Shown here in pieces: positions 308 through 20,898 of a DNA stretch of 25,280 bases. The position numbers and the translations under genes are program-made. The stretch is from a virus, in the IMG/VR virus record IMGVR_UViG_3300031576_000266, positions 1 to 25,280 of that record. One strand, given 5' to 3'. Every line of letters begins with the position of its first letter. Positions within the stretch are counted from its first letter, which is position 1. The notes under the pieces were generated by a model. It saw only the letters and a list, made by a program, of their open reading frames with translations, did not search any database and had not been told where the DNA came from.

Positions 308-2338
308 ATGTCTAGTTGGGCGACAGGACCGTTTGGAACAGGGCCGTGGGGAGGTGGCGTAGATGTCGTCCTCAATGTGCCTAGAGAGTTTGAAGCACGT
401 ACTTCAAATCCTAATGAAATTTCTTTAACCTGGAAAAAACCAGTAGCCTACAATACCTCTTTAGAGATTGTTGTAGTTCGACGTAAAGATGCATTTCCAA
501 TGGAATTGTTCAATGATGACCTTCTATTCTTAGCAAAACAAAATGTATCTGGGTTTACAGATCCAGCACAAGTAGAGATCTTTAGAGGAAGACTTATTAG
601 AGGAGTTAACGGGGTAGGAGCACCAAATCTATTTACAGATGCTTTGGCTACTTTTCCTACTGGCCCTTCTTTAAAAGGACGAATCTTAAGAGATTCACAA
701 AGTCATAACTTTAGAATTATCAGTAATACTGCCACAACAATAACTGTAGAAGGTACGCCTTTTTCAGGTCAGTATGCTATCTTAGTAGATTTTCCAAATT
801 CAAATCAACCAGCTATTAGTGGAACTTCTACAGCTGTAGGTACAGGATTTCTACGAGATACAACTAAGAACTTTATTAATGGTGAATTAACTGAAAGAAT
901 TCTAGTAGATCAAGCTGGTAATAGGTTTGTTATCTATTATAATCTTGGGGATTTATTTGGTGTATCAGGAACTCCAGTTGCTGGGGACTATACTGTCCTA
1001 CAAGAATTTAATGATTTTATTAGTCCTTCTCAAACAGTTCGTGGACAGTTTCAATATATTGATGATTTCTTAAATAAAGAAGAAGCAGATATTAGAACTG
1101 GATCAGGACTAGAATCTGAACAGTTTTATTATTATACGGCCTTTAACCACAGGATAGGCAACAATGTTGCTCAATCTTCCTTTGGTATAATTGATTCAGC
1201 TAACTCAAGTCAAGCTTCTGCATTGTCGGTACTTGATAGAGAGTTTCATGAAATCCTTTTAAACTTCTGGCCTAATGTATTTAAGATTACAGATTCAACT
1301 GGAGACTTTGAAGATCTAATGAAGATCTTTGGTTTCGGTTTAAATGAACAGTATAGTTATGTAAATACCTTTGATTTGGTTAATCCAAATAGAATGTATT
1401 ATAGTATCCTTCCTTCAATGGCTAAACAAACAGGTGTTGGATTAGCCGATACTTCTTTAGGAGTTGACACTTTAAGACGAATTGTTTTAGGGATGTTGCC
1501 TACCTGGAAGAAGAAAGGTACAAAACAAGGCATAGTAGATTTCATAAGAATAATCACTACTTGGGATGTAACTAACGGTACTGGAGATGCTTCAGAGATT
1601 ACAGATGATATTCCTAATTCGGGATCATTAAGATTCTACGCAGATACATTAGGAAGTGATAATACACGTATCTTTGGCTTTAGATCTGCATTTAATAATA
1701 GCCCTTTTGTCTCTTATACTTACACCCCTGCAACAGGATTAATACAATATCTTGCTCCAGTAGATTTAAGTCAAGTGGAAATTGGGGATACTTTTGAAGA
1801 CGGAGCTGGGAACATCTTTGATGTCCTAGCTGTTAATGATGCACTTAATCAGGTATATATTGACTTACTTCAAACAATTGTAACTGGTTCAAGAGGACAT
1901 GTATTTAAAAAGACAGCTATTTCAGCTGCAGGAAGATTCTTTTCTACCCTACCAGGAGTTATCATCCCTGGATTCTTTGACTTCAATGAGTTTGTGGTAC
2001 AAGTAAAAGATGTAGCACTCTTCGTTGGAGAAAGTGATGATATTGAAATTATTGGTAACTCAACAAAGATGACTGATAATACAGCCGCCTTTGGAGGAAC
2101 TAATAGTCTAGTCGGAAATTTCTTGTTACCTAAGCAGGGACAAGTAAACGATATATTTGAAATTACAGCTAACACAGCAACTACAATTACGGTCAAGGGA
2201 GTTGTAAGGGATACAGAACCAGTAGGAGACTACGCAGTTTTATCCCCGCTGAATGCTAAACGGTTTCAAAAAATCATTCAGTTAATGGAGGATTTTTCTC
2301 CTTCATTCGCTAAAATGGGATTACAATTCATTGATTAA
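308..2338 (+). CDS. Tail/baseplate protein with P2 gpI-like segment and repeated beta domains
   Basis: The 676-aa protein starts MSSWATGPFGTGPWGGG, a Gly/Trp-rich opening seen in many phage tail proteins. AAGGA lies upstream of the ATG. Residues about 25-60 look like a fibronectin-III strand set (SLTWKKP). Residues about 307-425 resemble the P2 gpI-type tail protein: an LP..A...GV stretch, an RR pair, P.WKKKGTKQGI, then a helix. A roughly 55-residue beta module occurs about three times (around residues 105-163, 169-235 and 587-648), marked by NTATTITV.G and a G.YA.L end. Known gpI-like proteins sit in the baseplate at the fibre junction, and a fibre gene follows 14 nt later. The tail-protein call is firm; the exact baseplate position is inferred. 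Confidence 0.8.
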   Translation: MSSWATGPFGTGPWGGGVDVVLNVPREFEARTSNPNEISLTWKKPVAYNTSLEIVVVRRKDAFPMELFNDDLLFLAKQNVSGFTDPAQVEIFRGRLIRGVNGVGAPNLFTDALATFPTGPSLKGRILRDSQSHNFRIISNTATTITVEGTPFSGQYAILVDFPNSNQPAISGTSTAVGTGFLRDTTKNFINGELTERILVDQAGNRFVIYYNLGDLFGVSGTPVAGDYTVLQEFNDFISPSQTVRGQFQYIDDFLNKEEADIRTGSGLESEQFYYYTAFNHRIGNNVAQSSFGIIDSANSSQASALSVLDREFHEILLNFWPNVFKITDSTGDFEDLMKIFGFGLNEQYSYVNTFDLVNPNRMYYSILPSMAKQTGVGLADTSLGVDTLRRIVLGMLPTWKKKGTKQGIVDFIRIITTWDVTNGTGDASEITDDIPNSGSLRFYADTLGSDNTRIFGFRSAFNNSPFVSYTYTPATGLIQYLAPVDLSQVEIGDTFEDGAGNIFDVLAVNDALNQVYIDLLQTIVTGSRGHVFKKTAISAAGRFFSTLPGVIIPGFFDFNEFVVQVKDVALFVGESDDIEIIGNSTKMTDNTAAFGGTNSLVGNFLLPKQGQVNDIFEITANTATTITVKGVVRDTEPVGDYAVLSPLNAKRFQKIIQLMEDFSPSFAKMGLQFID

Positions 2339-2352
2339 TAGGAGCTAACGGA

Positions 2353-5300
2353 ATGGCACTACCTACTAACAGTTTTAGACCTAAGAGATACTTTAGAAGT
2401 AAATTTCGTGAAGGAAAATACTTACTAGCTGCAGAGGCTTCAGACCTCCAGTTAGAAGTTCATGATCTACTTCGGGAGTTTATTAAACTCTCTTATGGTG
2501 ATATAGCGGTTCAGACCTCATGGAAGGCTGACCAAATTTCGCTTACGCAGCTCAGATTAAGACCTGGCTCTGCATGGGATGGCGGGATTCCTTTCTTAAT
2601 GAAATCAGGGACAGATCCTAAGATTATAGCAGGATCTTTGCCTACTGGTTTAACATTTACAGAATCGAGTGCAACTACCCTAGATGCAGGCGGGAAGAAC
2701 TTAAATCTTTCTGGAGCACTAGCGGATAATACATACTCAGTAGTTCTTGAGGGTACAGAAGAAGTGGTACGTCCAGTTGGTACAGGAGCAGTTGATCCTT
2801 ACCTTCAAGGTGTAAACGTTGGAGAAGAGACAGCTAACAAAGCTAGACTTATTTATAAGACCCACGTTATTCTTTCTTCAGAACTAACATCGAGTCCAAA
2901 TTTTCCTTTATCCCCAACAGCTAAACACTTTGTAAATGAAATATCAGTTACTCCTCCACCTGGATTTCTATTAGCTTCTGTACCTATTACGCAAGATGCT
3001 AATGGTGCAGATATACGTATTACATTAGATAATGCTTTAGCTAAACTTCCGTTTTCAACAGATGCCCAAGATTACATCAATGGTATCTTTGTAGATTCCG
3101 ATGGAAACGAAATGACGATTACAAGCATCTCGACAACAGATGCTGGAGCAACAGTTCAAATTCTTCTTGACCGAGAAATTGACTTTAACTCTCCTTTACC
3201 AAAAGCTGCTGTACCTGTTATTACTACTTCTATTCCTATCAGACTTATTAAGCGAGACTTTTATGTAAGTGCATCCAGTGGTACGCCACTAGGCAGACAC
3301 TACTATAGAATCGCTGAATTTAGTTCAGTAGCCGGTTCACTAACCAGCTTAACTGACAGACGTATTGTTTCAGGGGTTAATACCTTTGGAGTAGATCATA
3401 ATGTACGTTTAGTTGGTGGTGGGTTAATCAGCTGGAGTACAGGCACTAACTTAGTAACCTTTGATACAGATTTTCAAATTTCTATCCCTGGACTAGTCGG
3501 AAGAGCTATTATTGATTCTCCACCTGGAACTGTATCCTTGCCCCTTGATGGGCAAGTAGTATTTGTTTATTTAAATAGAAGAGCTACTGCTGATTACGTA
3601 GTAGCCCCAATTGTTGTTCTAAAAGAGAATGTACCCCCAAGTGTTGATGTATACGTTGTTATGGAACGTAAGTCTTCACGTATCTTCTTCCCTCATAATG
3701 GATCTATTGGAGATGGAGAAACAGGTATTCTAGGAGCATTCGGTGCCACCTTAGATAAGGATTTCTCACAAGATTTAATCATTGATGCTCTCACAGAAAA
3801 TCAAATGGACGAAGTGTTTGCTGAGACCTTTGATAATCAAAATAACGTGGATTTAGCTAATACTGTTGGAATGATTTATGAGCCATTTAGTAAACAGTAT
3901 AAAGCTACAGCAGCTGCAAGATATTTAAATTATGAAGCTGATGTATTACCAGATGATGGTTCATTACCTGTTGACGAAATATGGACACAGGTTGGATCAC
4001 AATTAGATGCGGTTGGTGGTGGATTACTTACTCTTACAGATACATCTGTAGGAGATCAAATTGCATATCAGAGAACTGAATCAAATCAAACTACATTGTC
4101 TCAAGCAGATCATGAAGTTCGATGCCGACTTACATCGAATGGTGGACAAGGCGGAAACTATTTTCTTTATGAAATTAAAGATGGCGCAAGCGGTAAACAT
4201 TTTGCTTTAGGTATTAAATCAACAAGTGCAGATTTAGTTGATGGTGCTGGATTAGTTCTTATTAGCGCGGTAGTAAATACCGCAGTAATGCATACTTACC
4301 GTATTGTTAAACTAGGAAATAGCGTAATACAACTATACGTAGATAATGTACTCTATGGAACTTTTCCTTATGCCTCTATAGTAACTGGTTCAGGTGGAGC
4401 AAGTACTATTAAGTGGGGAACTACAATTCCAACTACTTCAGTAGTGGACCTTGATTTTGTTCACTTTAATATATATCTCTCCATTTTACAATCTTTTGAT
4501 GTATTTAGAAAAGGAAACGTATTCTATAATGGGTATATAATCCCAACTTCTGATGCTGCTCCTTGGGTTAAAATTGGTGGAGGGGGAGGTATTACCGAAA
4601 CTATTACCAATAAGAAATTAGTATTGGTAGATGGTTCGGCTGCAGATCTCATTAACTATGAACGAGTAGAATCTTCTCTTATCCGACAAGGTGATGCTCA
4701 AATTGAAATGAGACTTAAGATTAATGCTGGTTATTCTGCCTTTCAAAGATTTGGAATACGAATTAAAGATGGTAAGAAAGACGTAGCAGCTTATATTAGA
4801 GATGTAGCAGGTCAGCTAAAAGTTGGTATGTATGATGGTGCTTCATTTACTTTAATTAGTAATGAATACAATATACCTACTGGAGACTTTGTAGTTATTA
4901 AACTAAAGAAACTTCGTGATGTTGGATATCAATTATTTGTTGATGGGTTAATTAAAGATTCTAATGCATATGATGAGTTCTCAGATACTACCACAGATAA
5001 GAAATTTATGTGGGGTTCTTATGATGTATTATCCAATTATACAACTACTGTAGATTTTACACAATATTCATTGCCTGGTTCTGAAAATTTAGCAGGAACA
5101 CCTGTTCATGATTTCATGACTATTGTAAGTTCTGATGATCCATTCCCAAAGGTTTGGGCATCAACTGATGATGGTTATACTTGGTATGAATCTTTAGAAG
5201 GTGAACATACATCTATAACAGATTATGATACAGCAGGTGGTAATATCCTTGTTCGTATTATGCTATCGAAACTAGACTCTGTTCTAACTGATTATGGTAT

Positions 5301-6606
5301 TTTATATAATAGAACTAACTTCGAAGTAGAAGGACAGTTTAATTATACTAAGTATATAGCAGTTGGTGGAGAAACAGTTGTTCCTCTCCCCTTTACATAT
5401 AACCCTGGTTCAAATGAATTAGAAGTATTCTATCGTCCTTTCTCTTCAGGAGAAACCCGAAAGCTTACTTTACCTAATGACTATACAGAACCAAATCAAA
5501 GCAATATCTTAATTGGTTTTGCTTTGGCACTTGGGGATATCATTGAGGCTCGGAATAGTTTTATTCCTGATCCATTGATTCCGCCTCCTGTTAGATTCTT
5601 AGATCACGATCATGATGGAAGTCATGGCGAGAGTGATGTTCTTAACCCAACTCTTATCAATGTTACTGATTTAAATGTTAGTAACGATTTAGATGTTGGA
5701 GGAGATCTAACTGTTGCTGGAACAATTAATGGAACTTCCCCTCTTGAACTCTCTGGAGATAATACTGGAGTTTTAGTTGGAGATGATACTCTAGCAGTAG
5801 GTACTCTAGAGTTAGCACTTAGAACTGCTGCTGGTGGTACTCCTTCTATGAAATTAAAAAGAGGAACTACTGATTGGAAATGGCAAATAAATTCTTCTGG
5901 TGATATTGAATTATATGTTGGTGGCATTCTTAGAATGTCTATGCCAGATGGAAGTGATTTTAGAATACATACAATTACTCCTGATATTACTAATAGTTTT
6001 TATATTAGATCAAATGATCTAAGTGGAAATGGAGATTCCAAAATTGTACTAGAAGTAAATAATGGTGCTAATAGTTGGGATATCAATCTTGATAATAGCG
6101 ATTCTGATAAACTTAAATTTAGTTATAATGGGCTAGAAAAGAAGATATTTCATTCTGGTACAACTCCAAGTGGTACTTCTGCTGGTTTAGGAGAATTAGC
6201 AAAATCTGCAGGATCAGGCTTATTTAGTACTTCTTCCAGTTCTTATACAAACGTTACAAATCTTTCAGTAACTATTGTAACTTCAGGAAGACCTGTTATG
6301 ATTAGATTACAAGAATCAGGAGGAGTAGTCGGGAATTTATCAGGGGGAGTTCAAGTTGACGCTAATAGTTCTGATAGTACTCATGGAAGTATAAGCTTTT
6401 TGAGAGATGGAAATCAAATTCAAGAATCTAATCTTTTTACTTTTAATGATAATACTGGTTCTAATGAACAATATTATCCATCAAGTGCATTTAGTGTTAT
6501 TGACCTTCCTGCAGCAGGGACATATACTTATAGTGTTCAGGCTAGGATTCAAGGTTCAACTGATGATATAGATGTTCAAGCTACTTTGGTAGTAATAGAG
6601 TTATAA
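2353..6606 (+). CDS. Large tail fibre / receptor-binding protein
   Basis: At 1417 aa this is the largest gene in the window, with AGGAG upstream of its ATG. The N-terminus (residues 1-75, with FREGKYLLAAEASDLQ) resembles the DUF4815-like virion-attachment domain of other phage fibres. Residues about 542-713 and 737-907 form two related lectin/LamG-like jelly-roll domains: each has a Q/E-YxRVESS- or YQRTESN-like strand, an E/RCRL or EMRLKI strand, an IKDG turn and a Q-LYVDN / Q-LFVDG strand. HDHDGSHG at about 1085 precedes shaft-like repeats (LNVSNDLDVGGDLTVAGTI, about 1102-1125). The last 140 residues are a Ser/Thr- and Gly-rich beta domain that may form the tip. It probably trimerises and binds a surface glycan (inference). 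Confidence 0.85.
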   Translation: MALPTNSFRPKRYFRSKFREGKYLLAAEASDLQLEVHDLLREFIKLSYGDIAVQTSWKADQISLTQLRLRPGSAWDGGIPFLMKSGTDPKIIAGSLPTGLTFTESSATTLDAGGKNLNLSGALADNTYSVVLEGTEEVVRPVGTGAVDPYLQGVNVGEETANKARLIYKTHVILSSELTSSPNFPLSPTAKHFVNEISVTPPPGFLLASVPITQDANGADIRITLDNALAKLPFSTDAQDYINGIFVDSDGNEMTITSISTTDAGATVQILLDREIDFNSPLPKAAVPVITTSIPIRLIKRDFYVSASSGTPLGRHYYRIAEFSSVAGSLTSLTDRRIVSGVNTFGVDHNVRLVGGGLISWSTGTNLVTFDTDFQISIPGLVGRAIIDSPPGTVSLPLDGQVVFVYLNRRATADYVVAPIVVLKENVPPSVDVYVVMERKSSRIFFPHNGSIGDGETGILGAFGATLDKDFSQDLIIDALTENQMDEVFAETFDNQNNVDLANTVGMIYEPFSKQYKATAAARYLNYEADVLPDDGSLPVDEIWTQVGSQLDAVGGGLLTLTDTSVGDQIAYQRTESNQTTLSQADHEVRCRLTSNGGQGGNYFLYEIKDGASGKHFALGIKSTSADLVDGAGLVLISAVVNTAVMHTYRIVKLGNSVIQLYVDNVLYGTFPYASIVTGSGGASTIKWGTTIPTTSVVDLDFVHFNIYLSILQSFDVFRKGNVFYNGYIIPTSDAAPWVKIGGGGGITETITNKKLVLVDGSAADLINYERVESSLIRQGDAQIEMRLKINAGYSAFQRFGIRIKDGKKDVAAYIRDVAGQLKVGMYDGASFTLISNEYNIPTGDFVVIKLKKLRDVGYQLFVDGLIKDSNAYDEFSDTTTDKKFMWGSYDVLSNYTTTVDFTQYSLPGSENLAGTPVHDFMTIVSSDDPFPKVWASTDDGYTWYESLEGEHTSITDYDTAGGNILVRIMLSKLDSVLTDYGILYNRTNFEVEGQFNYTKYIAVGGETVVPLPFTYNPGSNELEVFYRPFSSGETRKLTLPNDYTEPNQSNILIGFALALGDIIEARNSFIPDPLIPPPVRFLDHDHDGSHGESDVLNPTLINVTDLNVSNDLDVGGDLTVAGTINGTSPLELSGDNTGVLVGDDTLAVGTLELALRTAAGGTPSMKLKRGTTDWKWQINSSGDIELYVGGILRMSMPDGSDFRIHTITPDITNSFYIRSNDLSGNGDSKIVLEVNNGANSWDINLDNSDSDKLKFSYNGLEKKIFHSGTTPSGTSAGLGELAKSAGSGLFSTSSSSYTNVTNLSVTIVTSGRPVMIRLQESGGVVGNLSGGVQVDANSSDSTHGSISFLRDGNQIQESNLFTFNDNTGSNEQYYPSSAFSVIDLPAAGTYTYSVQARIQGSTDDIDVQATLVVIEL

Positions 6607-6617
6607 GGAGGAATGTC

Positions 6618-6803
6618 ATGATGAAAATTATAAAGTTTTATAGACTAAACACAAATAAGATTGAATCTCTTTCAGCTATGGAAGAGGATCAAATAGATAT
6701 GGACTGGTTAGATAATAGACAATCTTTAGACTATGAAATAGTAAATTATGATGAGGCTACTTATCTTGCATTAAAAGCTCAAATGAGAGCTGATAGGATA
6801 TAA
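6618..6803 (+). CDS. Small hypothetical protein between two fibre genes
   Basis: The 61-aa protein starts MMKIIKFYRL and is acidic in the middle (EEDQIDMDWLDN). I do not recognise a family. AAGGAGG ends 6 nt before the chosen ATG at 6618; an ATG at 6613 runs straight into TGA, so it is not the start. It lies 11 nt after the large fibre and 1 nt before the next fibre, a position often taken by fibre-assembly chaperones, but nothing in its sequence proves that role. Confidence 0.65.
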   Translation: MMKIIKFYRLNTNKIESLSAMEEDQIDMDWLDNRQSLDYEIVNYDEATYLALKAQMRADRI

Positions 6804-6804
6804 T

Positions 6805-7812
6805 ATGGCAATCACAAAAGGCCGTCAAGGTAAATTCACAAAGAAATCTACAGACCTTAGCACTCCTGCTATAGTTCGACCTAAGATTTCTAGTGCAAGT
6901 CAAACTTGGATGGGGGCCGCAGATGTTGATAATAACAATCCTGAGACTTTTTATTTCCATTTGTTTGGTTCTGTACCAGCTGAAACTACTCTCTTTGTTT
7001 ATGGAGACTTATATAATCAGGCTTTCTATACAGAATTAGGGCTACATAATCATGTAGTAAGTATTACTTCAGGTACATCAAATCAAAGTTTTAACCATAC
7101 ACATGTTGTTTCAATAGACTTTGGAGCACATAATCACGGGGATCATAATTTAGCAACTATCACAGGTTGGTTAAAAGGAGCTGATGCAAGTACACCTACT
7201 TCAGCTTCGATGCCTAACTCTACACATAACCATGCGTTAGAATCAGATGGTTCAGCTTCTGGATTTGGAGATCATAGACATACATTAGGTGTAGACAATG
7301 GTGATGGTGGTCAAAAGATTGATATTGATGGTGGTACATTAGTTTATCGTACTACATTTCCAACTACTGGCAATTTTATTATGGGAACAAATCAAGTTGA
7401 TACAAGACTTACACCAGTAAGATTAAATGCCAGTTTTACATCTAACTCTCAGGCTAATAATACCTTATTTCAAGTAATGCAGAATCATACGCATCTTGTT
7501 TCTGGTAATACAGCTTCAGTGGGATTAGCACCAATAGTTGGTTCTGTACATACATCAGGAACTGCTCATTCATACTTCAATGCTCTTAAAATTGAAATTG
7601 ATGGTGTTGATGTAACTGCTCCTTTACTTGTTCAAGCAGGTTTAGCAGCTTTTGGAGATGGTACAGCAGGACATGTTATTGTTACAACAGGAGTTGAATT
7701 AGACATTAGTGCTTATGTAAGCGTACCTGGACAACATAAAGTTAAGTTCTTATTAAATACTCTTTCACCAAATAATGGTGGAAAAGTAAGATATAACTTA
7801 TACACATTATAA
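6805..7812 (+). CDS. HxH-rich fibre / tail tip protein
   Basis: The 335-aa protein has at least six His-X-His motifs, at about residues 81-83 (HNH), 98-100 (HTH), 109-114 (HNHGDH), 141-143 (HNH), 157-159 (HRH) and 228-230 (HTH), spread over Gly/Ser/Thr/Asn-rich beta sequence. In T4 gp37 such motifs on a trimer octahedrally coordinate iron ions along the fibre needle. A similar metal-stabilised trimeric needle is likely here. The C-terminal third (about 245-335) looks like a globular beta domain. The start overlaps nothing; the preceding stop ends 1 nt upstream, suggesting translational coupling. It is probably a second receptor-binding or fibre-tip subunit. Confidence 0.75.
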   Translation: MAITKGRQGKFTKKSTDLSTPAIVRPKISSASQTWMGAADVDNNNPETFYFHLFGSVPAETTLFVYGDLYNQAFYTELGLHNHVVSITSGTSNQSFNHTHVVSIDFGAHNHGDHNLATITGWLKGADASTPTSASMPNSTHNHALESDGSASGFGDHRHTLGVDNGDGGQKIDIDGGTLVYRTTFPTTGNFIMGTNQVDTRLTPVRLNASFTSNSQANNTLFQVMQNHTHLVSGNTASVGLAPIVGSVHTSGTAHSYFNALKIEIDGVDVTAPLLVQAGLAAFGDGTAGHVIVTTGVELDISAYVSVPGQHKVKFLLNTLSPNNGGKVRYNLYTL

Positions 7813-12722: not shown

Positions 12723-13280
12723 CTATCTAGATAAAAATGTAGCTGATATTTTAGCTGCCCATTGTACAAATTCTTTTAAAGTTCTATCTTTTTTAGACAT
12801 ATTACAATGTTTACAACAAGGTACTACATTTTTTATTAAGTATCCTTTTGTATTATCAACTCTGTCTATTCCATTATACCTTAATTCACCATTTTTATTA
12901 TTTTTAAAAAATACATTAGCTGGAAGTGAATTACAATAAAAACATTTATTACTTATAAGCTCTTTAAATTCTGTTTCAGATAGTTTAAATTCTAAGTTTC
13001 TTTTTCTAGCTTCAGATCTATAAGAGTAAAATAAAGTATTAAAAGCAGATACTCCTTTACCTTTAGAACGAAATAGTGTTCCTGTTAGCTTTGCCTTTTC
13101 TTTTTGAAGGCAACCGCAAGACTTTGTTACTCCTGTTTTTAAAGAACTACTTATTACTGATTTAATATTTCCACATTCACAAGAACAAAGCCAAAGTCTA
13201 TTATTTCTTTTAGATCCAATATCTTTTAATGCTGTGAGCCTCCCAAATTTTAAACCAATAAGATTATTAACTGGTTTCAT
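12723..13280 (-). CDS. HNH homing-type endonuclease
   Basis: The 185-aa protein has a small zinc-ribbon-like N-terminus (KFGRLTAL, then CSCECG and SCGC at residues 32-57) typical of free-standing phage HNH endonucleases. The C-terminal HNH domain has C113-x2-C116, GIDRVDN (D139), NVVPCC (N151, C155) and HCNMSKKD (C159). Such genes spread by cutting cognate sites in related phages. Local composition is clearly more AT-rich than its neighbours: about 24% GC in the two 60-nt rows I counted (12781-12900), against 48% in one recA row. Its ATG overlaps the upstream 58-aa frame as ATGA. Insertion next to, not within, a gene is suggested. Confidence 0.88.
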   Translation of the reverse strand: MKPVNNLIGLKFGRLTALKDIGSKRNNRLWLCSCECGNIKSVISSSLKTGVTKSCGCLQKEKAKLTGTLFRSKGKGVSAFNTLFYSYRSEARKRNLEFKLSETEFKELISNKCFYCNSLPANVFFKNNKNGELRYNGIDRVDNTKGYLIKNVVPCCKHCNMSKKDRTLKEFVQWAAKISATFLSR

Positions 13281-13453
13281 TTGTCCTCACTATCTTTCCA
13301 TAAAGCTTGTAAGAAAGCAAACTTAACATCTGTCTTAAGTAGCTTTTTCATAGCTGGAATATCATTCCTGATCTTTAAGAGTTTATAATAGTGTTTTGTA
13401 AACCCATTCAGTTTTAACCAGTCTAAAAAGGTTAGGGCTTTTCTTCTGGGCAT
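13277..13453 (-). CDS. 58-aa basic hypothetical protein
   Basis: ATG at 13453 opens a frame (MPRRKALTFLDWLKLN) ending in TGA at 13279-13277, which overlaps the next ATG as ATGA. It overlaps the 3' end of the HAD nucleotidase by 22 nt and fills an otherwise empty 150-nt gap. The product is lysine-rich and helical, with Trp/Phe/Tyr residues and no TM segment. I do not recognise it. The exact ATGA coupling at its 3' end and gap-filling position support coding. Alternatively it is the remnant of a longer gene disturbed by the adjacent HNH gene. Confidence 0.55.
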   Translation of the reverse strand: MPRRKALTFLDWLKLNGFTKHYYKLLKIRNDIPAMKKLLKTDVKFAFLQALWKDSEDK

Positions 13454-13965
13454 ATCATTCTTTCTAACTGGATTAAATTATGGATTCGTTTGTACTTCTG
13501 ACCCTCTTCTGTATTGTTATATGGTTGATCCATAAGTACAATACTTTCTAAAGGCAATCCCGCCTTCTCAGCATCCTTCAAATTCTTAATAGCATCATCC
13601 ACAAAGAAGTCAGGTTTAAGTTGTTTCAATACTTGTCTCTTACCTCTAGGAGCGTAGACTATCTTAGACAAAGGGATCTTATTTAATATAAAGGACATCT
13701 CTGTATGACCTTTAAAGTTTGAGTGTCTAGCTGTTACGAAAATAATCTCATGCCCTGCCTTAAGTATATTATCAATGGCTGTTCTTACTCCTTCAAAAGG
13801 TTGAAGTGTAGCATACCCGCCGCTGTTTTCGAAATACTCAAGACTCTCATGAGGCATGAACGATGTAATGTCTTCAACTGTGACTCTAGTGCCTCTACGA
13901 AGGTTATGTACCCTCAAGAACTGCTGCATGAAGTCAAAGACTACTCCGTCTATATCTAACGCTAT
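13432..13965 (-). CDS. HAD-superfamily 5'(3')-nucleotidase with non-canonical start
   Basis: The frame encodes a HAD phosphatase of the NT5C-like deoxyribonucleotidase type. Motif I is LDIDGVVFDF, with nucleophile Asp codon at 13956 and the acid/base Asp at 13950. Motif II is IIFVTAR, and motif IV is KPDFFVDDAIKNL. The first ATG in frame (13929) lies after motif I, and a protein starting there would lack the nucleophile. No ATG, GTG or TTG exists between motif I and the upstream in-frame TGA at 13983. The coordinates given use AUA at 13965, which overlaps the previous gene's stop (ATAG) and follows AAGGA by 11 nt. The alternative is entry by -1 frameshifting from the preceding gene. It would dephosphorylate nucleotides near dUTPase. 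Confidence 0.75.
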   Translation of the reverse strand: MALDIDGVVFDFMQQFLRVHNLRRGTRVTVEDITSFMPHESLEYFENSGGYATLQPFEGVRTAIDNILKAGHEIIFVTARHSNFKGHTEMSFILNKIPLSKIVYAPRGKRQVLKQLKPDFFVDDAIKNLKDAEKAGLPLESIVLMDQPYNNTEEGQKYKRIHNLIQLERMICPEEKP

Positions 13966-14180
13966 TCTAAGTTTTTTCCTTCACTCTCTTTTCGTTCAGT
14001 GTACTCCAAAAGGAAGATAAATGCAAGAAAGTCTTCCCAAACCCCTGGAGCTAAAATATAAGTATCTGTTTTAAAACATACTTTTGTGGGGCTAATATAT
14101 AACTTGTTCAAGCAATACTCAGTTTCTGAGAGCTTGTGAAAGTCATATGTCGGATACTCCCAGCTATAGGTAATCTCCGT
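13962..14180 (-). CDS. Hypothetical protein, possible upstream partner of the HAD nucleotidase
   Basis: The chosen start at 14180 (MTEITYSWEYPTYDF) has AAGGA 4 nt upstream and lies just after dut, giving 72 aa. A longer version from 14261 would overlap dut by 47 nt, across the codons for dUTPase motif 5, and its extra residues look like out-of-frame translation. The product is aromatic, with a hydrophobic stretch near the end (WEDFLAFIFLLEY). I do not recognise it. Its last codons, GGA AAA AAC TTA GAA TAG, contain an A AAA AAC heptamer in shifting phase that would lead into the HAD frame. Confidence 0.6.
   Translation of the reverse strand, partial: TEITYSWEYPTYDFHKLSETEYCLNKLYISPTKVCFKTDTYILAPGVWEDFLAFIFLLEYTERKESEGKNLE
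13971..13977 (-). other. Candidate -1 ribosomal frameshift heptamer A AAA AAC
   Basis: Read on the - strand, A AAA AAC lies in the X XXY YYZ phase of the upstream gene, three codons before its TAG. A one-base backward slip gives AAA AAA CTT AGA ATA GCG TTA GAT, the frame of the HAD catalytic motif. The A6 run is also where a sequencing length error could hide a simple in-frame fusion. I see no strong downstream hairpin. Confidence 0.45.
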
Positions 14181-14214
14181 CATTAGTTCCTTAAAGGACT
14201 TTATGACGTGTTGC

Positions 14215-14670
14215 TTATGCTCCTGAGCTTCCGAATCCATCTGTTCCTCGTTCTGTTTCACTTAACTCTGTGGCTCCTATGGCTTCAATGTAAGGGATGG
14301 GGATAATTACCAGTTGCCCAATCTTATCTCCTTGATTATACCTAATAGGGTAATCATGTAGAACTTTAAACCTTAAAGCAATCTCTCCACGATACCCACT
14401 ATCAATAACTCCAACTGCATTGGCTAGGCTTAACCCAGTCTTACTAATGCTAGATCTAGGAAATACTAATCCCACATAGCCGTTGGGAATCTCAACTGCC
14501 AATCCAGTTCTATATTCTCTATACTCAGCATGTCTAGGAGTTGATCCTGTAGTTTCTTCAACTTTCATAACTCCGCTATCAATGGCAGTTAAATCTAAAC
14601 CTGCATCTCCTGCTTTTGCGTAAGAAGGTAACACAGCTAGTCTATCTAGTATCTTGAACTTTACTTGCAT
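14215..14670 (-). CDS. dut: dUTP diphosphatase (dUTPase), trimeric type
   Basis: The 151-aa protein has all five trimeric dUTPase motifs in order: AGDAGLDL (20-27), PRSS (71-74), GVIDSGYRGE (87-96, catalytic Asp90), GDKIGQLVI (114-122) and the C-terminal P-loop-like RGTDGFGSSG (141-150). It hydrolyses dUTP to dUMP and pyrophosphate, limiting uracil in phage DNA and feeding dTMP synthesis. Residues about 31-53 form a longer loop between motifs 1 and 2 than in short bacterial enzymes. GGAGG lies upstream of the ATG. It overlaps the preceding gene by 10 nt. Confidence 0.95.
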   Translation of the reverse strand: MQVKFKILDRLAVLPSYAKAGDAGLDLTAIDSGVMKVEETTGSTPRHAEYREYRTGLAVEIPNGYVGLVFPRSSISKTGLSLANAVGVIDSGYRGEIALRFKVLHDYPIRYNQGDKIGQLVIIPIPYIEAIGATELSETERGTDGFGSSGA

Positions 14671-14942
14671 ACTAAATCCTCCAAGGTATCATCGAAGATA
14701 ACACAGTTATCAAAATTGAAAATCTCTTTAGTTATTTCTTTCATTTGTTGAAAGTCTAAGAATCCGTCTTCTCCAGGTACATCGCATTCTAAAATAGTAT
14801 CCCCAGTAAGTACTTCTCCTTTGTCTACTCTAAACCCGCCATGTCTAAAACGAATATAGTAATAAGTTCCATCTTCTGCCCAAGCATCCCATTGTGATGG
14901 GCACATTGTACAAGTTCGGATTATCTTAGCGATTTTTATCAC
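14661..14942 (-). CDS. Conserved hypothetical protein
   Basis: The 93-aa protein starts at GTG 14942 (MIKIAKIIRTCTMCPSQWDAWAEDG) within the end of the upstream gene, with GGA about 8 nt ahead. The CPSQWDAW-DG-YYYIRFRHGGFRVDKGE stretch resembles a recurrent uncharacterised phage family with short beta strands rich in Tyr and Arg. The C-terminal half is acidic. No catalytic motif is visible. Overlaps of 17 nt upstream and 10 nt with dut indicate coupled translation. Confidence 0.65.
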   Translation of the reverse strand: MIKIAKIIRTCTMCPSQWDAWAEDGTYYYIRFRHGGFRVDKGEVLTGDTILECDVPGEDGFLDFQQMKEITKEIFNFDNCVIFDDTLEDLVCK

Positions 14943-15168
14943 TTAGTCTTTCCATCTCTTTAATAACTTTATTAAGTCTCTTTTGTACTAATTTAGCCTT
15001 ATTAAGACCGAAGTAAATACCGCCATAACAATCTGATCCTTCACTAAGTCGCCCAAGAGTAAACCCTAATCCTTGGGCGTATCGTCGTTTACCTTTGGGG
15101 CCTACCACTATCTTTGCCCTAAAGATACTCATTGAATGAAACGAACCAGTTGTGGCCTTATAATGCAT
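14926..15168 (-). CDS. Small basic hypothetical protein
   Basis: The 80-aa protein has a Lys/Arg/Gly-rich central part (VVGPKGKRRYAQGLGFTLG) and a C-terminal basic helix (KAKLVQKRLNKVIKEMERL). I do not recognise it. The charge suggests nucleic-acid binding, but no named motif is seen. The ATG at 15168 immediately follows the previous gene's stop, and a GGA-containing stretch lies about 11 nt upstream. Confidence 0.6.
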   Translation of the reverse strand: MHYKATTGSFHSMSIFRAKIVVGPKGKRRYAQGLGFTLGRLSEGSDCYGGIYFGLNKAKLVQKRLNKVIKEMERLSDKNR

Positions 15169-17559: not shown

Positions 17560-18520
17560 TTATCTTCCCAATCAGTTCATTCATTAACGTTTCGTTCTCT
17601 GCTACATTTTCAACAGCAGCATTTCTTCCTTGACCTAGTTGCTCACCATTGTATTTGAACCAAGCTCCACTCTTTTCTACTATGCCTAGTTCAGTAGCAA
17701 GGTCAAAGATATCTCCCATGACATCTACACCTCTTCCATACATAAGTGGAAACGTGGCTTTAGTAAAAGGCGGGGCCAGTTTATTCTTTACAACCTTAAC
17801 AATCATGTTATGGCCTATAACTTTATCTTTCTCTTTAAGTTGCTCTCCCCTTCTAACTTCTAGTCTAAGGGAACAATAGAACTTAAGGGCATTACCTCCT
17901 GTAGTGGTTTCAGGATTACCAAACACAACACCAATTTTCATGCGTACTTGGTTAATCCAAATAAGGGTAGTATTCGTTTTAGATACAACCCCTGTGAGTT
18001 TCCTACAAGCCTGAGACATTAGACGAGCTTGGACACCCATATTTGAGTCTCCCATGTTCCCTTCTAATTCGGCTTGTGGGGTTAATGCTGCTACCGAGTC
18101 AACAACAATAACCCCCACATCGCCACTTCGGGCCAATTTCTCTACAATTTCGAGTCCCTGTTCTCCTGAATCAGGCTGAGATAAGAGCAATTCCTCCGTC
18201 TTAACGCCGAGAATCTTGGCTAAACGTAAGTCTAGCGAGTGTTCAGCGTCTACATATGCTACTACATCCCCTCGTCGTTGAGCTTCCGCTACCACATAAA
18301 GTGCCAGCGTAGTCTTCCCTGTAGATTCTGGTCCGAAAACTTCAACCATTCTTCCTTTAGGAAACCCACCAATACCAAGAGCACGATCAAGACTAAAGAT
18401 TCCTGTGTTAATAACTTCGGTTACTGGAGGATCAGTATCCCCCAATAGCATGATAGATCCTTTACCAAAGTCTTTTTCAATGGCCTCTTTAAGTTCTTTA
18501 AGCTTCTTCGTCGTTGCCAT
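17528..18520 (-). CDS. recA: RecA recombinase
   Basis: The 330-aa protein is a full RecA core: short N-terminal helix ([14 protein letters not shown]), Walker A GPESTGKT (63-70), [11 protein letters not shown], Walker [15 protein letters not shown], the [11 protein letters not shown] loop-1 region, [11 protein letters not shown] and the loop-2 [22 protein letters not shown] region. It closely resembles bacterial RecA and not T4 UvsX. The acidic C-terminal tail is shorter than in E. coli (353 aa). It would form filaments on single-stranded DNA for strand exchange and recombination-dependent replication. GAGGAAA precedes the ATG, which lies within the end of a small membrane-protein gene. Confidence 0.96.
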
Positions 18521-18683
18521 CTGGATCTTTCCTCACAAAGTTAGTGTCTAAATACTTCTTAACTCTATACGAGCTGTAAGCAGCTACCACTAAACCAATA
18601 AGCATTGGAATGAACTGGCCTGTAAATAACATTACAGCTGCCAATCCTGCGTTGAAAGCTACTAATACTAGATCTAAAATCAT
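18498..18683 (-). CDS. Small two-TM membrane protein
   Basis: The 61-aa protein has two hydrophobic segments (about 2-20 and 24-40) with a short polar turn, and a charged cytoplasmic tail ([22 protein letters not shown]). AAGG precedes the ATG. It overlaps recA by 23 nt. Size and hairpin topology fit a pinholin- or holin-like protein, but it is far from the endolysin and in the replication operon. The function is unknown. Confidence 0.62.
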
Positions 18684-18685
18684 AT

Positions 18686-19084
18686 TTACCTTATCTTGGA
18701 AAGTTCTCTAGCATTTACTGATTCTGTTCTAACAGCATCTAGAGCTTGATCCCATGTTGTTTTTTCATTTAAAGCATCCATCATTTGTTGATGTGCGTCA
18801 TCCCAATGACCTACAAACTCTTCCCATTCCTTGTCAGCTCTTGCCATGTCCTTTAAGTCATCTCTAGTCCAGGTTCTTTTACCTTCTGGAATAGGGGTAT
18901 TCTCTCGAATACGTTGCATAATCCTAGCTAGTTTAATATCAGACTTACGTTCAAAGCTGCCGTATACTGCACTAGCATTAGCCCAAACCTTACCGGCTTC
19001 ATATCTCTTATTAACAATATCAATAAGATTAGGGGGATTGTTTACGTCTATTGGCGAATATCTATCTACTTCGTTTTCATTCAT
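18686..19084 (-). CDS. Hypothetical charged protein
   Basis: The 132-aa protein starts MNENEVDRYSPIDVNNPPNL and is helical and highly charged, with several Trp residues (KVWANAS, RTWTRDD, KEWEEFVGHWDD, TTWDQAL). I do not recognise a family. There are no TM segments, cysteines or catalytic motifs. AAGG lies upstream of the ATG. The protein is probably soluble, perhaps a scaffold or binding protein. Confidence 0.62.
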   Translation of the reverse strand: MNENEVDRYSPIDVNNPPNLIDIVNKRYEAGKVWANASAVYGSFERKSDIKLARIMQRIRENTPIPEGKRTWTRDDLKDMARADKEWEEFVGHWDDAHQQMMDALNEKTTWDQALDAVRTESVNARELSKIR

Positions 19085-19092
19085 AGGCCACC

Positions 19093-19398
19093 TTAAAATG
19101 TGTAATACATTGATTTATAAACCATCACGATCAAATTCCATACTACCACTGATGCAAGTAATATGCAAGATAATTTGTTAAGATAATACTTCTTCTTTCT
19201 GATAGCATACGCGCAACCAGCTAGAACTACAGCCATTTTAAAAGTAAAGAAGGATAAGGGTCCGATATCTAAGAAGAATTTCATAAGTGGGTTCTTCTCT
19301 TCTAACCCCATCTTACCTACTAGAAGTAGGGTAAGTAGGGCATCTACAAAGTTAAAGTAGATAGCCCCGATTACCCATCTCCATTCCTCTTTAGGTAT
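19093..19398 (-). CDS. DUF5658-like membrane protein with uncertain start
   Basis: The recognisable part is FNFVDALLTLLLVGKMGLEEKNPLMKFFLDIGP, followed by FFTFKMAVVLAGCAYAIRK and a last hydrophobic helix. This N.xDal.T...G..E.NP.m pattern with a membrane Lys resembles DUF5658. There are three TM segments. No ATG, GTG or TTG occurs just ahead of it: the nearest in-frame ones are ATG 19509 (no ribosome binding site) and TTG 19554, both deep inside the nuclease gene. The coordinates given use AUA 19398, 4 nt before the upstream stop. That would give MPKEEWRWVIG and a normal family length, but it is a hypothesis. The longer overlapping form remains possible. Confidence 0.55.
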   Translation of the reverse strand: MPKEEWRWVIGAIYFNFVDALLTLLLVGKMGLEEKNPLMKFFLDIGPLSFFTFKMAVVLAGCAYAIRKKKYYLNKLSCILLASVVVWNLIVMVYKSMYYTF

Positions 19399-19972
19399 TA
19401 GGCTCGTTGTTCCCGTTACCTTGTTTTCTAAAGTTTCTAAAATCCTTTTTACCACGGACTCTGAATTCCTTCCAGTATACTTTCTTATCCAAGACCAACT
19501 GTTTGACATACTTTTGGTTATGCGACAAATGACTTTTTCCACTCTTAACCTCAATAAATGTTATCCCATCTTTATCAAACGCAATATAATCAACAGGTTG
19601 TCCTAGCCACCTCAAACGTTTAGGATCATGATTACCCATCAAAAAGGGAGCCAATGTTTCAGCTATATGCCCTGTCCTAATCTCTGAGGACTTCTTTTGA
19701 CTTAAGATTGTTCTGTTACGTTCAATCTCCTGATCCAACTGATTCTTTAATATTGTAGCTTGTTCCTTAACCTGTGTCAACTCTGTTTCTTTATTAGACA
19801 GTAAGGATTCAAAATGTCCTAACTGTGCATGTAGAGCTTTTACTTCATACTGTGTTCTGTTTTCCGCTTCTTCATTTATTGGAGGTGCTTTCTTAAAAAG
19901 ATCGCTCCTCTTGTAGACCACATAAATTAGAATGGCTACAATTGCAGCAACCCCTAGAAAAGACCAATACAT
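19391..19972 (-). CDS. Membrane-anchored Holliday-junction-nuclease-like protein (PF10107 type)
   Basis: The 193-aa protein has an N-terminal TM helix (about 4-20), a coiled coil (about 40-92) and a C-terminal PD-(D/E)xK nuclease domain (99-170): R-TGHIAETLAPFL (E105), KRLRWLGQPVDYIAFD (D128), ITFIEVKSG (E141, K143), then HNQKYVKQLV and KVYWKEF. This is the pattern of predicted endonucleases distantly related to archaeal Holliday junction resolvases. The TM anchor would tether nuclease activity to the inner membrane. GGAGG lies 5 nt ahead of the ATG. The C-terminal tail is basic. The substrate is not known. Confidence 0.83.
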   Translation of the reverse strand: MYWSFLGVAAIVAILIYVVYKRSDLFKKAPPINEEAENRTQYEVKALHAQLGHFESLLSNKETELTQVKEQATILKNQLDQEIERNRTILSQKKSSEIRTGHIAETLAPFLMGNHDPKRLRWLGQPVDYIAFDKDGITFIEVKSGKSHLSHNQKYVKQLVLDKKVYWKEFRVRGKKDFRNFRKQGNGNNEPNT

Positions 19973-19982
19973 AATACCTCCT

Positions 19983-20483
19983 TTATTTTAAGAGATATCT
20001 TTTAGCTCTATTTAAAAGCTCAGGATCATCTCTAAATTTACCTAATCCTACATTACAACTATCACATAACAATCCTCTTATCTTATTCGTTATATGACAA
20101 TGATCTACTGCTAACATCTTTATATTTCCATTACTATGTTTAGCAGTTTCTTTTTTCTTACAAATAGCACATTCATTCTCTTGTAAGTTTAAAAGTTTAT
20201 CATACTCTTTCTTGGTTTCTTCCCAAGTTAGGTTAGGCCAAAACTTATATTTTAATCTTTTAAACTTTGATTTAGATAAGTTATTGTAGTAATGTTTTTT
20301 ATTCTTTAGTCTATTTAACTTCTTACCATGTTCAGTTTTAATATACTTAGAATGATATTTATTAAAACATTGTTTACAATTGCCTTGATAACCATCTTTC
20401 TTACTTGAATTCTTCGCAAAATCTTTTATTGACTTTGTTACTTTACATTCATAACACTTTTTACTTAACTGCATGTGCTGCAT
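19983..20483 (-). CDS. Endonuclease VII-like HNH nuclease, probably a mobile endonuclease
   Basis: The 166-aa protein has an N-terminal zinc finger (C10-x2-C13 ... C36-x2-C39), a lysine-rich linker, and an endonuclease VII-type domain: ENECAICKK (C105, C108), LAVDHCH (127-130), KIRGLLCDSCNVGLG (C140, C143-N144) and a DDPELLNRAKRYL helix. T4 gp49 resolves DNA branches with this fold, but the N-terminal finger is typical of mobile copies. Local DNA is very AT-rich (about 22% GC in the counted row 20281-20340), unlike flanking genes. The start (20483, or 20474 at Met4) overlaps the upstream gene's end and has no evident ribosome binding site. Confidence 0.85.
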   Translation of the reverse strand: MQHMQLSKKCYECKVTKSIKDFAKNSSKKDGYQGNCKQCFNKYHSKYIKTEHGKKLNRLKNKKHYYNNLSKSKFKRLKYKFWPNLTWEETKKEYDKLLNLQENECAICKKKETAKHSNGNIKMLAVDHCHITNKIRGLLCDSCNVGLGKFRDDPELLNRAKRYLLK

Positions 20484-20898
20484 AGCCTATTGCCAATCCA
20501 GCCCCAATTGTAAGTAACACCCCTAAAGTGATATATAGAAATTTACTCTTATTTTCCTGTTTGAGAGTTTTAAGAAGTTGGTCTTCTGATTGAAGCCAAG
20601 CTTGTCTATAACGGTCTTCAATTTGCTTATGCAACTCTATTTGAGTTTGCAAATGCTCAAGTGAATCCTTAGACAAACTAAGTTCCTTCTTTAAGTAATC
20701 TGCTTCAATTAAATGAAATCTTATTTGTTGTTCCTGTGGTACCGTGAAATACCAACCATCCTCTTTAGGAGTAAATGGTTTTCCTGCTTCTAATTTAATA
20801 GGAGCATTCGTTGCAGGTTTGTTTTCCTCTGCATAAACCCCTGTACTACTTCCTAGTACGAGTGTACCACATAGTAGTACGGCTAATAATCTCTTCAT
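20461..20898 (-). CDS. Exported coiled-coil protein with C-terminal TM (spanin-like topology)
   Basis: The 145-aa protein has a Sec signal peptide with a VYA-EE cleavage site (about residue 23), a Pro/Lys-rich stretch, a periplasmic coiled coil (about 65-116) and a C-terminal TM helix (about 119-141, FLYITLGVLLTIGAGLAIGY). The early LLCG is not a good lipobox. The topology, exported coiled coil anchored by a C-terminal TM, recalls spanins, but u-spanins are lipoproteins. Its place far from the endolysin is unusual. It may alternatively be an envelope-modifying protein. AGGA precedes the ATG. Confidence 0.65.
   Translation of the reverse strand: MKRLLAVLLCGTLVLGSSTGVYAEENKPATNAPIKLEAGKPFTPKEDGWYFTVPQEQQIRFHLIEADYLKKELSLSKDSLEHLQTQIELHKQIEDRYRQAWLQSEDQLLKTLKQENKSKFLYITLGVLLTIGAGLAIGYAAHAVK

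Follow-up and report, generated by a model that had tools for sequence, protein, structure and literature searches.

A predicted phage deoxyribonucleotidase gene with no usual start codon before its catalytic motif, and a candidate AUA start

In a genome fragment of an uncultured phage, the open frame of a predicted HAD-superfamily deoxyribonucleotidase carries its first catalytic motif upstream of every ATG, GTG or TTG codon in that frame. We regard an AUA codon at 13965-13963, overlapping the stop codon of the preceding gene, as the likeliest start (probability about 0.5), ahead of a sequence variant and of ribosomal frameshifting; this weight, like those expressed in words for other readings, is a judgement, not a computed probability. 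The case makes a good candidate for a rare phenomenon that is already known, and it presents nothing categorically new.

Setting of the gene

The window analysed here is the entire IMG/VR record IMGVR_UViG_3300031576_000266 (25,280 bases), a single metagenome-derived record, and represents a tailed-phage fragment without a close sequenced relative. On its minus strand lies a closely packed gene series whose members include RecA, IMPDH, dUTPase, a 92-aa open reading frame and the HAD-type deoxyribonucleotidase. The features on which the argument turns, from upstream to downstream, are:

14215 to 14670, minus strand: dUTPase, a nucleotide-metabolism neighbour (PF00692, 5.4e-22)
13962 to 14240, minus strand: upstream 92-aa orphan open reading frame with an ATG start and a TAG stop, without matches
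13977 to 13981, minus strand: AAGGA, a Shine-Dalgarno-like 5-base match, at an aligned spacing of 9 to ATA and of 3 to CTT
13971 to 13977, minus strand: A_AAA_AAC heptamer in the 0-frame of the upstream gene, from which a -1 shift leads into CTT AGA ATA GCG of the HAD frame
13963 to 13965, minus strand: proposed AUA start, overlapping the upstream TAG as AUAG; no other AUN near-cognate codon lies between the in-frame stop and motif I
13930 to 13965, minus strand: codons ATA to TTC, encoding IALDIDGVVFDF, that is, motif I with the catalytic Asp, located before any usual start
13927 to 13929, minus strand: first ATG of the HAD frame; a start here loses motif I
13432 to 13980, minus strand: open frame of the HAD-superfamily 5'(3')-deoxyribonucleotidase (NT5C/PF06941, phrog_420), assigned by Pfam, PHROG and fold

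The same series also holds an HNH/endonuclease VII-like gene (12723-13280, minus strand), possibly a homing endonuclease. Elsewhere in the window, the plus-strand region 308-7812 encodes large tail-region proteins of 676, 1417 and 335 aa, none of the three with a PHROG match; the 676-aa protein had no match among 50,697 phage records. Each of the three is conserved in a few IMG/VR contigs, which suggests an undescribed phage group. Searches of the window for tRNAs and Rfam families returned no matches.

The frame encodes a predicted NT5C-type nucleotidase

By profile, motifs and fold, the product of the HAD frame is a predicted NT5C-type deoxyribonucleotidase. The frame scores over the cut-off against Pfam NT5C (PF06941, 7.9e-11) and matches phrog_420 (2.7e-22). 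An AlphaFold model built with 28 homologues reached a pLDDT of 93.2 and a pTM of 0.89, and its best fold match in the PDB (Foldseek) was the deoxyribonucleotidase-like protein 3bwv (E 3.1e-9, probability 1.00). In the HAD alignment, D9, D11, K114, D129 and N155 are invariant across 28 sequences: D9 and D11 form the DxD of motif I, K114 is the motif III lysine and D129 the motif IV acidic residue. D9, which we take from family knowledge to be the catalytic nucleophile position, closes the first predicted strand of the model (residues 5-9). Both motif I aspartates are inside the product only if translation starts before 13929.

No usual start codon precedes motif I

The original prediction placed motif I upstream of the first ATG, with no usual start back to an in-frame TGA, and direct reading bears out both its coordinates and its phases. 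The frame is bounded by that TGA (13983-13981) and, at its end, by a TAA; from 13980 to 13930 its codons are AGG AAA AAA CTT AGA ATA GCG TTA GAT ATA GAC GGA GTA GTC TTT GAC TTC, and between the TGA and ATG 13929 none in the HAD frame is ATG, GTG or TTG. ATG 13929 corresponds to residue 18, and a product begun there would lack the first strand and the catalytic Asp.

Using a small HAD alignment as a scan query, we recovered a close relative, IMGVR_UViG_3300031576_000007 (L070), whose HAD protein is 51% identical to that of the window and of which 40 kb hold homologues of more than 20 window genes in broadly the same order. Over the 12 codons from ATA 13965 to TTC 13930, 10 of 12 residues are identical between the two, while 9 of the 11 base differences fall at third positions (p=0.0014 against an expectation of one third); read in the other two frames, the same stretch gives 2/11 identical residues. 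Since residues are kept while third positions change, this comparison indicates that codons 6-17 are conserved as protein, and we take them to be translated and under protein-level constraint. Of the remaining window genes for which the relative has a homologue, none is convincingly conserved ahead of its first usual start; an apparent upstream extension of gene 20461 was rejected, as it runs through stops in the relative.

With codons 6-17 constrained, a start at ATG 13929 cannot be the full account. Translation from this codon would give a 165-aa non-catalytic protein without motif I, and what recommends it is that no usual start comes earlier in the frame. Against it stand the conservation as protein of the 12 codons it excludes, the invariance of D9 and D11, and a sole Shine-Dalgarno candidate, GGAG, at an aligned spacing of 13. 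We regard such a start as highly improbable.

The RecA and IMPDH genes of the relative are each interrupted in frame by a long insert (L121, about 14100-15040 and 18250-19200) that is absent from the window's RecA and IMPDH; the inserts, of about 300 aa and with the endings CHNS and VHNS, look like inteins.

Homologues begin with usual starts

In the relative, the HAD gene begins ATG CTA ATC GCT CTT GAT ATC GAT (M-L-IALDID), its ATG aligning with CTT 13971 of the window, and in both sequences an in-frame stop lies exactly 8 codons before the Asp. A usual start was present between the stop and motif I in 57 of the 57 other homologous loci inspected, a set that includes some near-duplicates; the distance from the likely start to the Asp is mostly 5-10 residues and at its shortest 4 (L081). 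The window is thus the sole exception among inspected homologues. Because homologue starts are all usual, the exception is a real one, and the family lends no support to an obligate fusion with the upstream protein. The alignment of homologues that the original prediction proposed as a check accordingly returned usual starts before motif I, but neither a fusion to the upstream protein nor a conserved heptamer arrangement.

Such uniformity also invites the reading that the usual start exists in other members of the population and is missing from this record through a consensus error or a population variant, or that the gene was newly disabled by recent start loss. The ATG of the relative at the position of CTT 13971 fits this reading, as does the origin of the site in one metagenome-derived record of which our scans found no second copy. 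However, stop and Asp are as far apart as in the relative, which suggests no indel, and CTT is several substitutions away from the relative's ATG. The assembly looks sound, in that alignments of several long genes to the relative run as single stretches with no frame breaks, and the remainder of the HAD gene is intact and keeps its conserved motif residues. We consider an error, variant or lost start unlikely, though it deserves more weight than any other alternative to the AUA start. The more specific proposal of a miscounted A6 run is not suggested: the stop-to-Asp distance is 8 codons in window and relative alike, and the long genes align unbroken.

The search for a second copy of the site, a two-sequence scan, returned the same relative and 2 distant matches, with records very near the window possibly omitted, and a degenerate motif-I scan had the relative IMGVR_UViG_3300031576_000007 as its sole match. 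A scan of genome contigs gave 3 distant matches; scans of phages and single-protein viral scans yielded no close relatives of the HAD or upstream protein, and those with IMPDH and RecA reached distant phages only. Scanning with the tail proteins brought up further related phages, none of which was found to carry the HAD or the upstream gene.

A slippery heptamer at the gene junction

The upstream gene ends GGA AAA AAC TTA GAA TAG, and the claim that its A_AAA_AAC lies in exact -1 phase into the HAD frame was confirmed. Programmed -1 frameshifting here would fuse the 92-aa protein to the nucleotidase (...EGKN-LRIALDIDG...). The heptamer is in phase and precedes the 0-frame stop by only 6 nt. 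Shifting at A_AAA_AAC has been proven in an IS cluster for which no stimulator is established (PMC4066793), and the tail g-t genes of haloarchaeal virus HCTV-2 are listed with this heptamer as their shift site (PMC5009743), but in E. coli it is far less shifty than A_AAA_AAG (PMC5009743). Nor is a slippery heptamer at this junction very special: the window contains 37 in-phase X_XXZ_ZZN heptamers in 7,811 codons, four of them A_AAA_AAN, and by our own arithmetic the roughly 8 codons in which a heptamer could be effective would contain one of any type with a chance of about 4%, and A_AAA_AAN with a chance of 0.4%.

The 80 and 120 nt downstream of the heptamer fold no better than shuffled sequences (z -0.77 and -0.68), and pseudoknot-free folding detected no significant stimulatory structure downstream (z between -0.77 and 0.89). 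AAGGA abuts or overlaps the heptamer, whereas a stimulator would be expected about 10-14 nt upstream of it; the only other candidate is a weak GAGAG some 6 nt upstream.

Distant homologues do carry the HAD nucleotidase behind another nucleotide enzyme domain, the dATP/dGTP diphosphohydrolase N-terminal domain PF18909 (L078 2150-2983, L079 2114-2974, L088 2183-3004). The 92-aa protein, however, is an orphan: it had no match in PHROGs, phages, viral contigs or relatives and no significant Pfam match, and as a candidate fused N-terminal domain it was rejected, showing neither similarity to the PF18909 domain of the fused homologues nor a family match. It does not lie beside the HAD gene in the relative, where the gene upstream is a different small lysine-rich open reading frame and the HAD protein is unfused. 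In the related phages L125 and L127, dUTPase is followed directly by a homologue of gene 10728 (junctions at about 18701-19500 and about 19810-20588, respectively), the 92-aa open reading frame, the HAD gene and several other genes being absent between them.

Owing to the lack of downstream structure, the orphan upstream protein, the unfused and ATG-started HAD gene of the relative, and the gene order of L125 and L127, the evidence overall leans away from a frameshift fusion, which we rate as improbable. The original prediction had named three alternatives — a frameshift fusion, an AUA start and a miscounted A-run — and this was the right set, with the evidence now leaning against the first and not suggesting the last.

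Two further routes into a fused product were weighed. Transcriptional slippage at the six-A run (13977-13972) could place some mRNAs in the fused frame, but a run of six A is short for bacterial RNA polymerase to slip on, and conservation is absent here just as for the ribosomal fusion; we give this route hardly any weight. Recoding of the upstream TAG was rejected, as further TAGs follow within a few codons in the same frame.

An AUA codon as the likeliest start

The AUA start, our preferred reading, would place initiation at the junction itself. As originally predicted, AUA 13965 overlaps the upstream stop as ATAG, and ATGA (-4) overlaps occur elsewhere in the series, four among adjacent pairs; because 13 of 40 window genes end in ATAA or ATAG, the AUAG overlap is weak evidence for AUA. 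Among the 30 window genes that have a Shine-Dalgarno match of at least 4 bases, spacings run from 1 to 11 with a mode of 6, and the spacing of 9 from AAGGA to ATA falls within this range but in its long tail, 3 of the 30 genes having a spacing of at least 9. The site appears unstructured (13940-14010, -4.6 kcal/mol, z 0.36).

Besides the long spacing and the mere 5 bases of AAGGA, two observations count against AUA. The codon is not conserved, the relative having ATC at the aligned position and starting with ATG two codons earlier; and an AUA start puts Met 3 residues before the Asp, which makes the N-terminus one residue shorter than in the shortest homologue. AUA initiation is also normally weak.

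In the mechanism we propose, ribosomes that finish the 92-aa open reading frame at UAG (13964-13962), or that are recruited by AAGGA (13981-13977), or both, would initiate at the overlapping AUA and produce a protein of about 177 aa (M-ALDIDGVVFDF...) at lowered yield. Such a weak start would hold a nucleotide-degrading enzyme low and link its synthesis to that of the upstream protein. An ordinary ATG was probably present nearby in the ancestral gene, as it is in the relative.

Precedents for low-yield AUA initiation exist. In S. aureus, infC, ccpN and citZ have AUA starts, with extended Shine-Dalgarno sequences in infC and ccpN, and reporters for ccpN and citZ in poor medium yielded about 10% of what AUG gave, with ccpN reaching up to 30% in rich medium (PMC13009471). 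In E. coli frameshift reporters, Shine-Dalgarno-like G runs were held responsible for a low level of initiation at an AUA in the -1 frame 7 nt downstream (PMC4066793), which serves as a warning for frameshift testing at the window site.

If real, the AUA start would set a phage metabolic gene to low output through a rare start codon. Gene finders restricted to ATG, GTG and TTG truncate or miss such genes; here they would leave a 165-aa call without the catalytic aspartate. The gene offers a small, directly testable case for asking how frequent phage near-cognate starts coupled to an upstream stop are, and if it proves to be only a sequence variant, it counsels caution on single metagenome records.

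Comparison with known systems

The gene resembles the NT5C-type 5'(3')-deoxyribonucleotidases (PF06941; 3bwv; phrog_420) in its Pfam and PHROG matches, HAD motifs and predicted fold, and departs from the inspected members of that family in having no usual start before motif I. With the dATP/dGTP diphosphohydrolase-HAD fusions it shares a HAD nucleotidase domain with a possible partner upstream; those fusions, however, are encoded in a single frame that needs no frameshift, and their N-terminal domain is unrelated to the 92-aa protein.

As regards initiation, the likeness to S. aureus infC, ccpN and citZ (PMC13009471) lies in an in-frame AUA with a Shine-Dalgarno sequence upstream and an expected low yield. 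In contrast to those starts, the window has a 5-base AAGGA that is not extended and sits at long spacing, and its candidate AUA overlaps the upstream stop and is not conserved. Coupling through -4 overlaps (NTGA; PMC12548453) is the second parallel, in that start and stop overlap by two bases and ATGA pairs occur in the same gene series, but the start in the window would be AUA.

In IS911, orfA and orfB meet where an AUU start lies near an A6G frameshift site, and the window likewise combines a near-cognate start and a slippery A-run at a -1 frame junction. Frameshift stimulators have been described for IS911 (PMC5009743); the window heptamer, by comparison, ends in C, not G, has no demonstrated stimulators and belongs to a gene that is not a transposase. 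The parallel raises a dual decoding, in which an AUA-initiated, coupled free nucleotidase would be accompanied by a minor -1 fusion to the orphan protein. We think this quite improbable; if true, a phage operon for nucleotide metabolism would hold a counterpart, outside transposons, of the IS911 arrangement.
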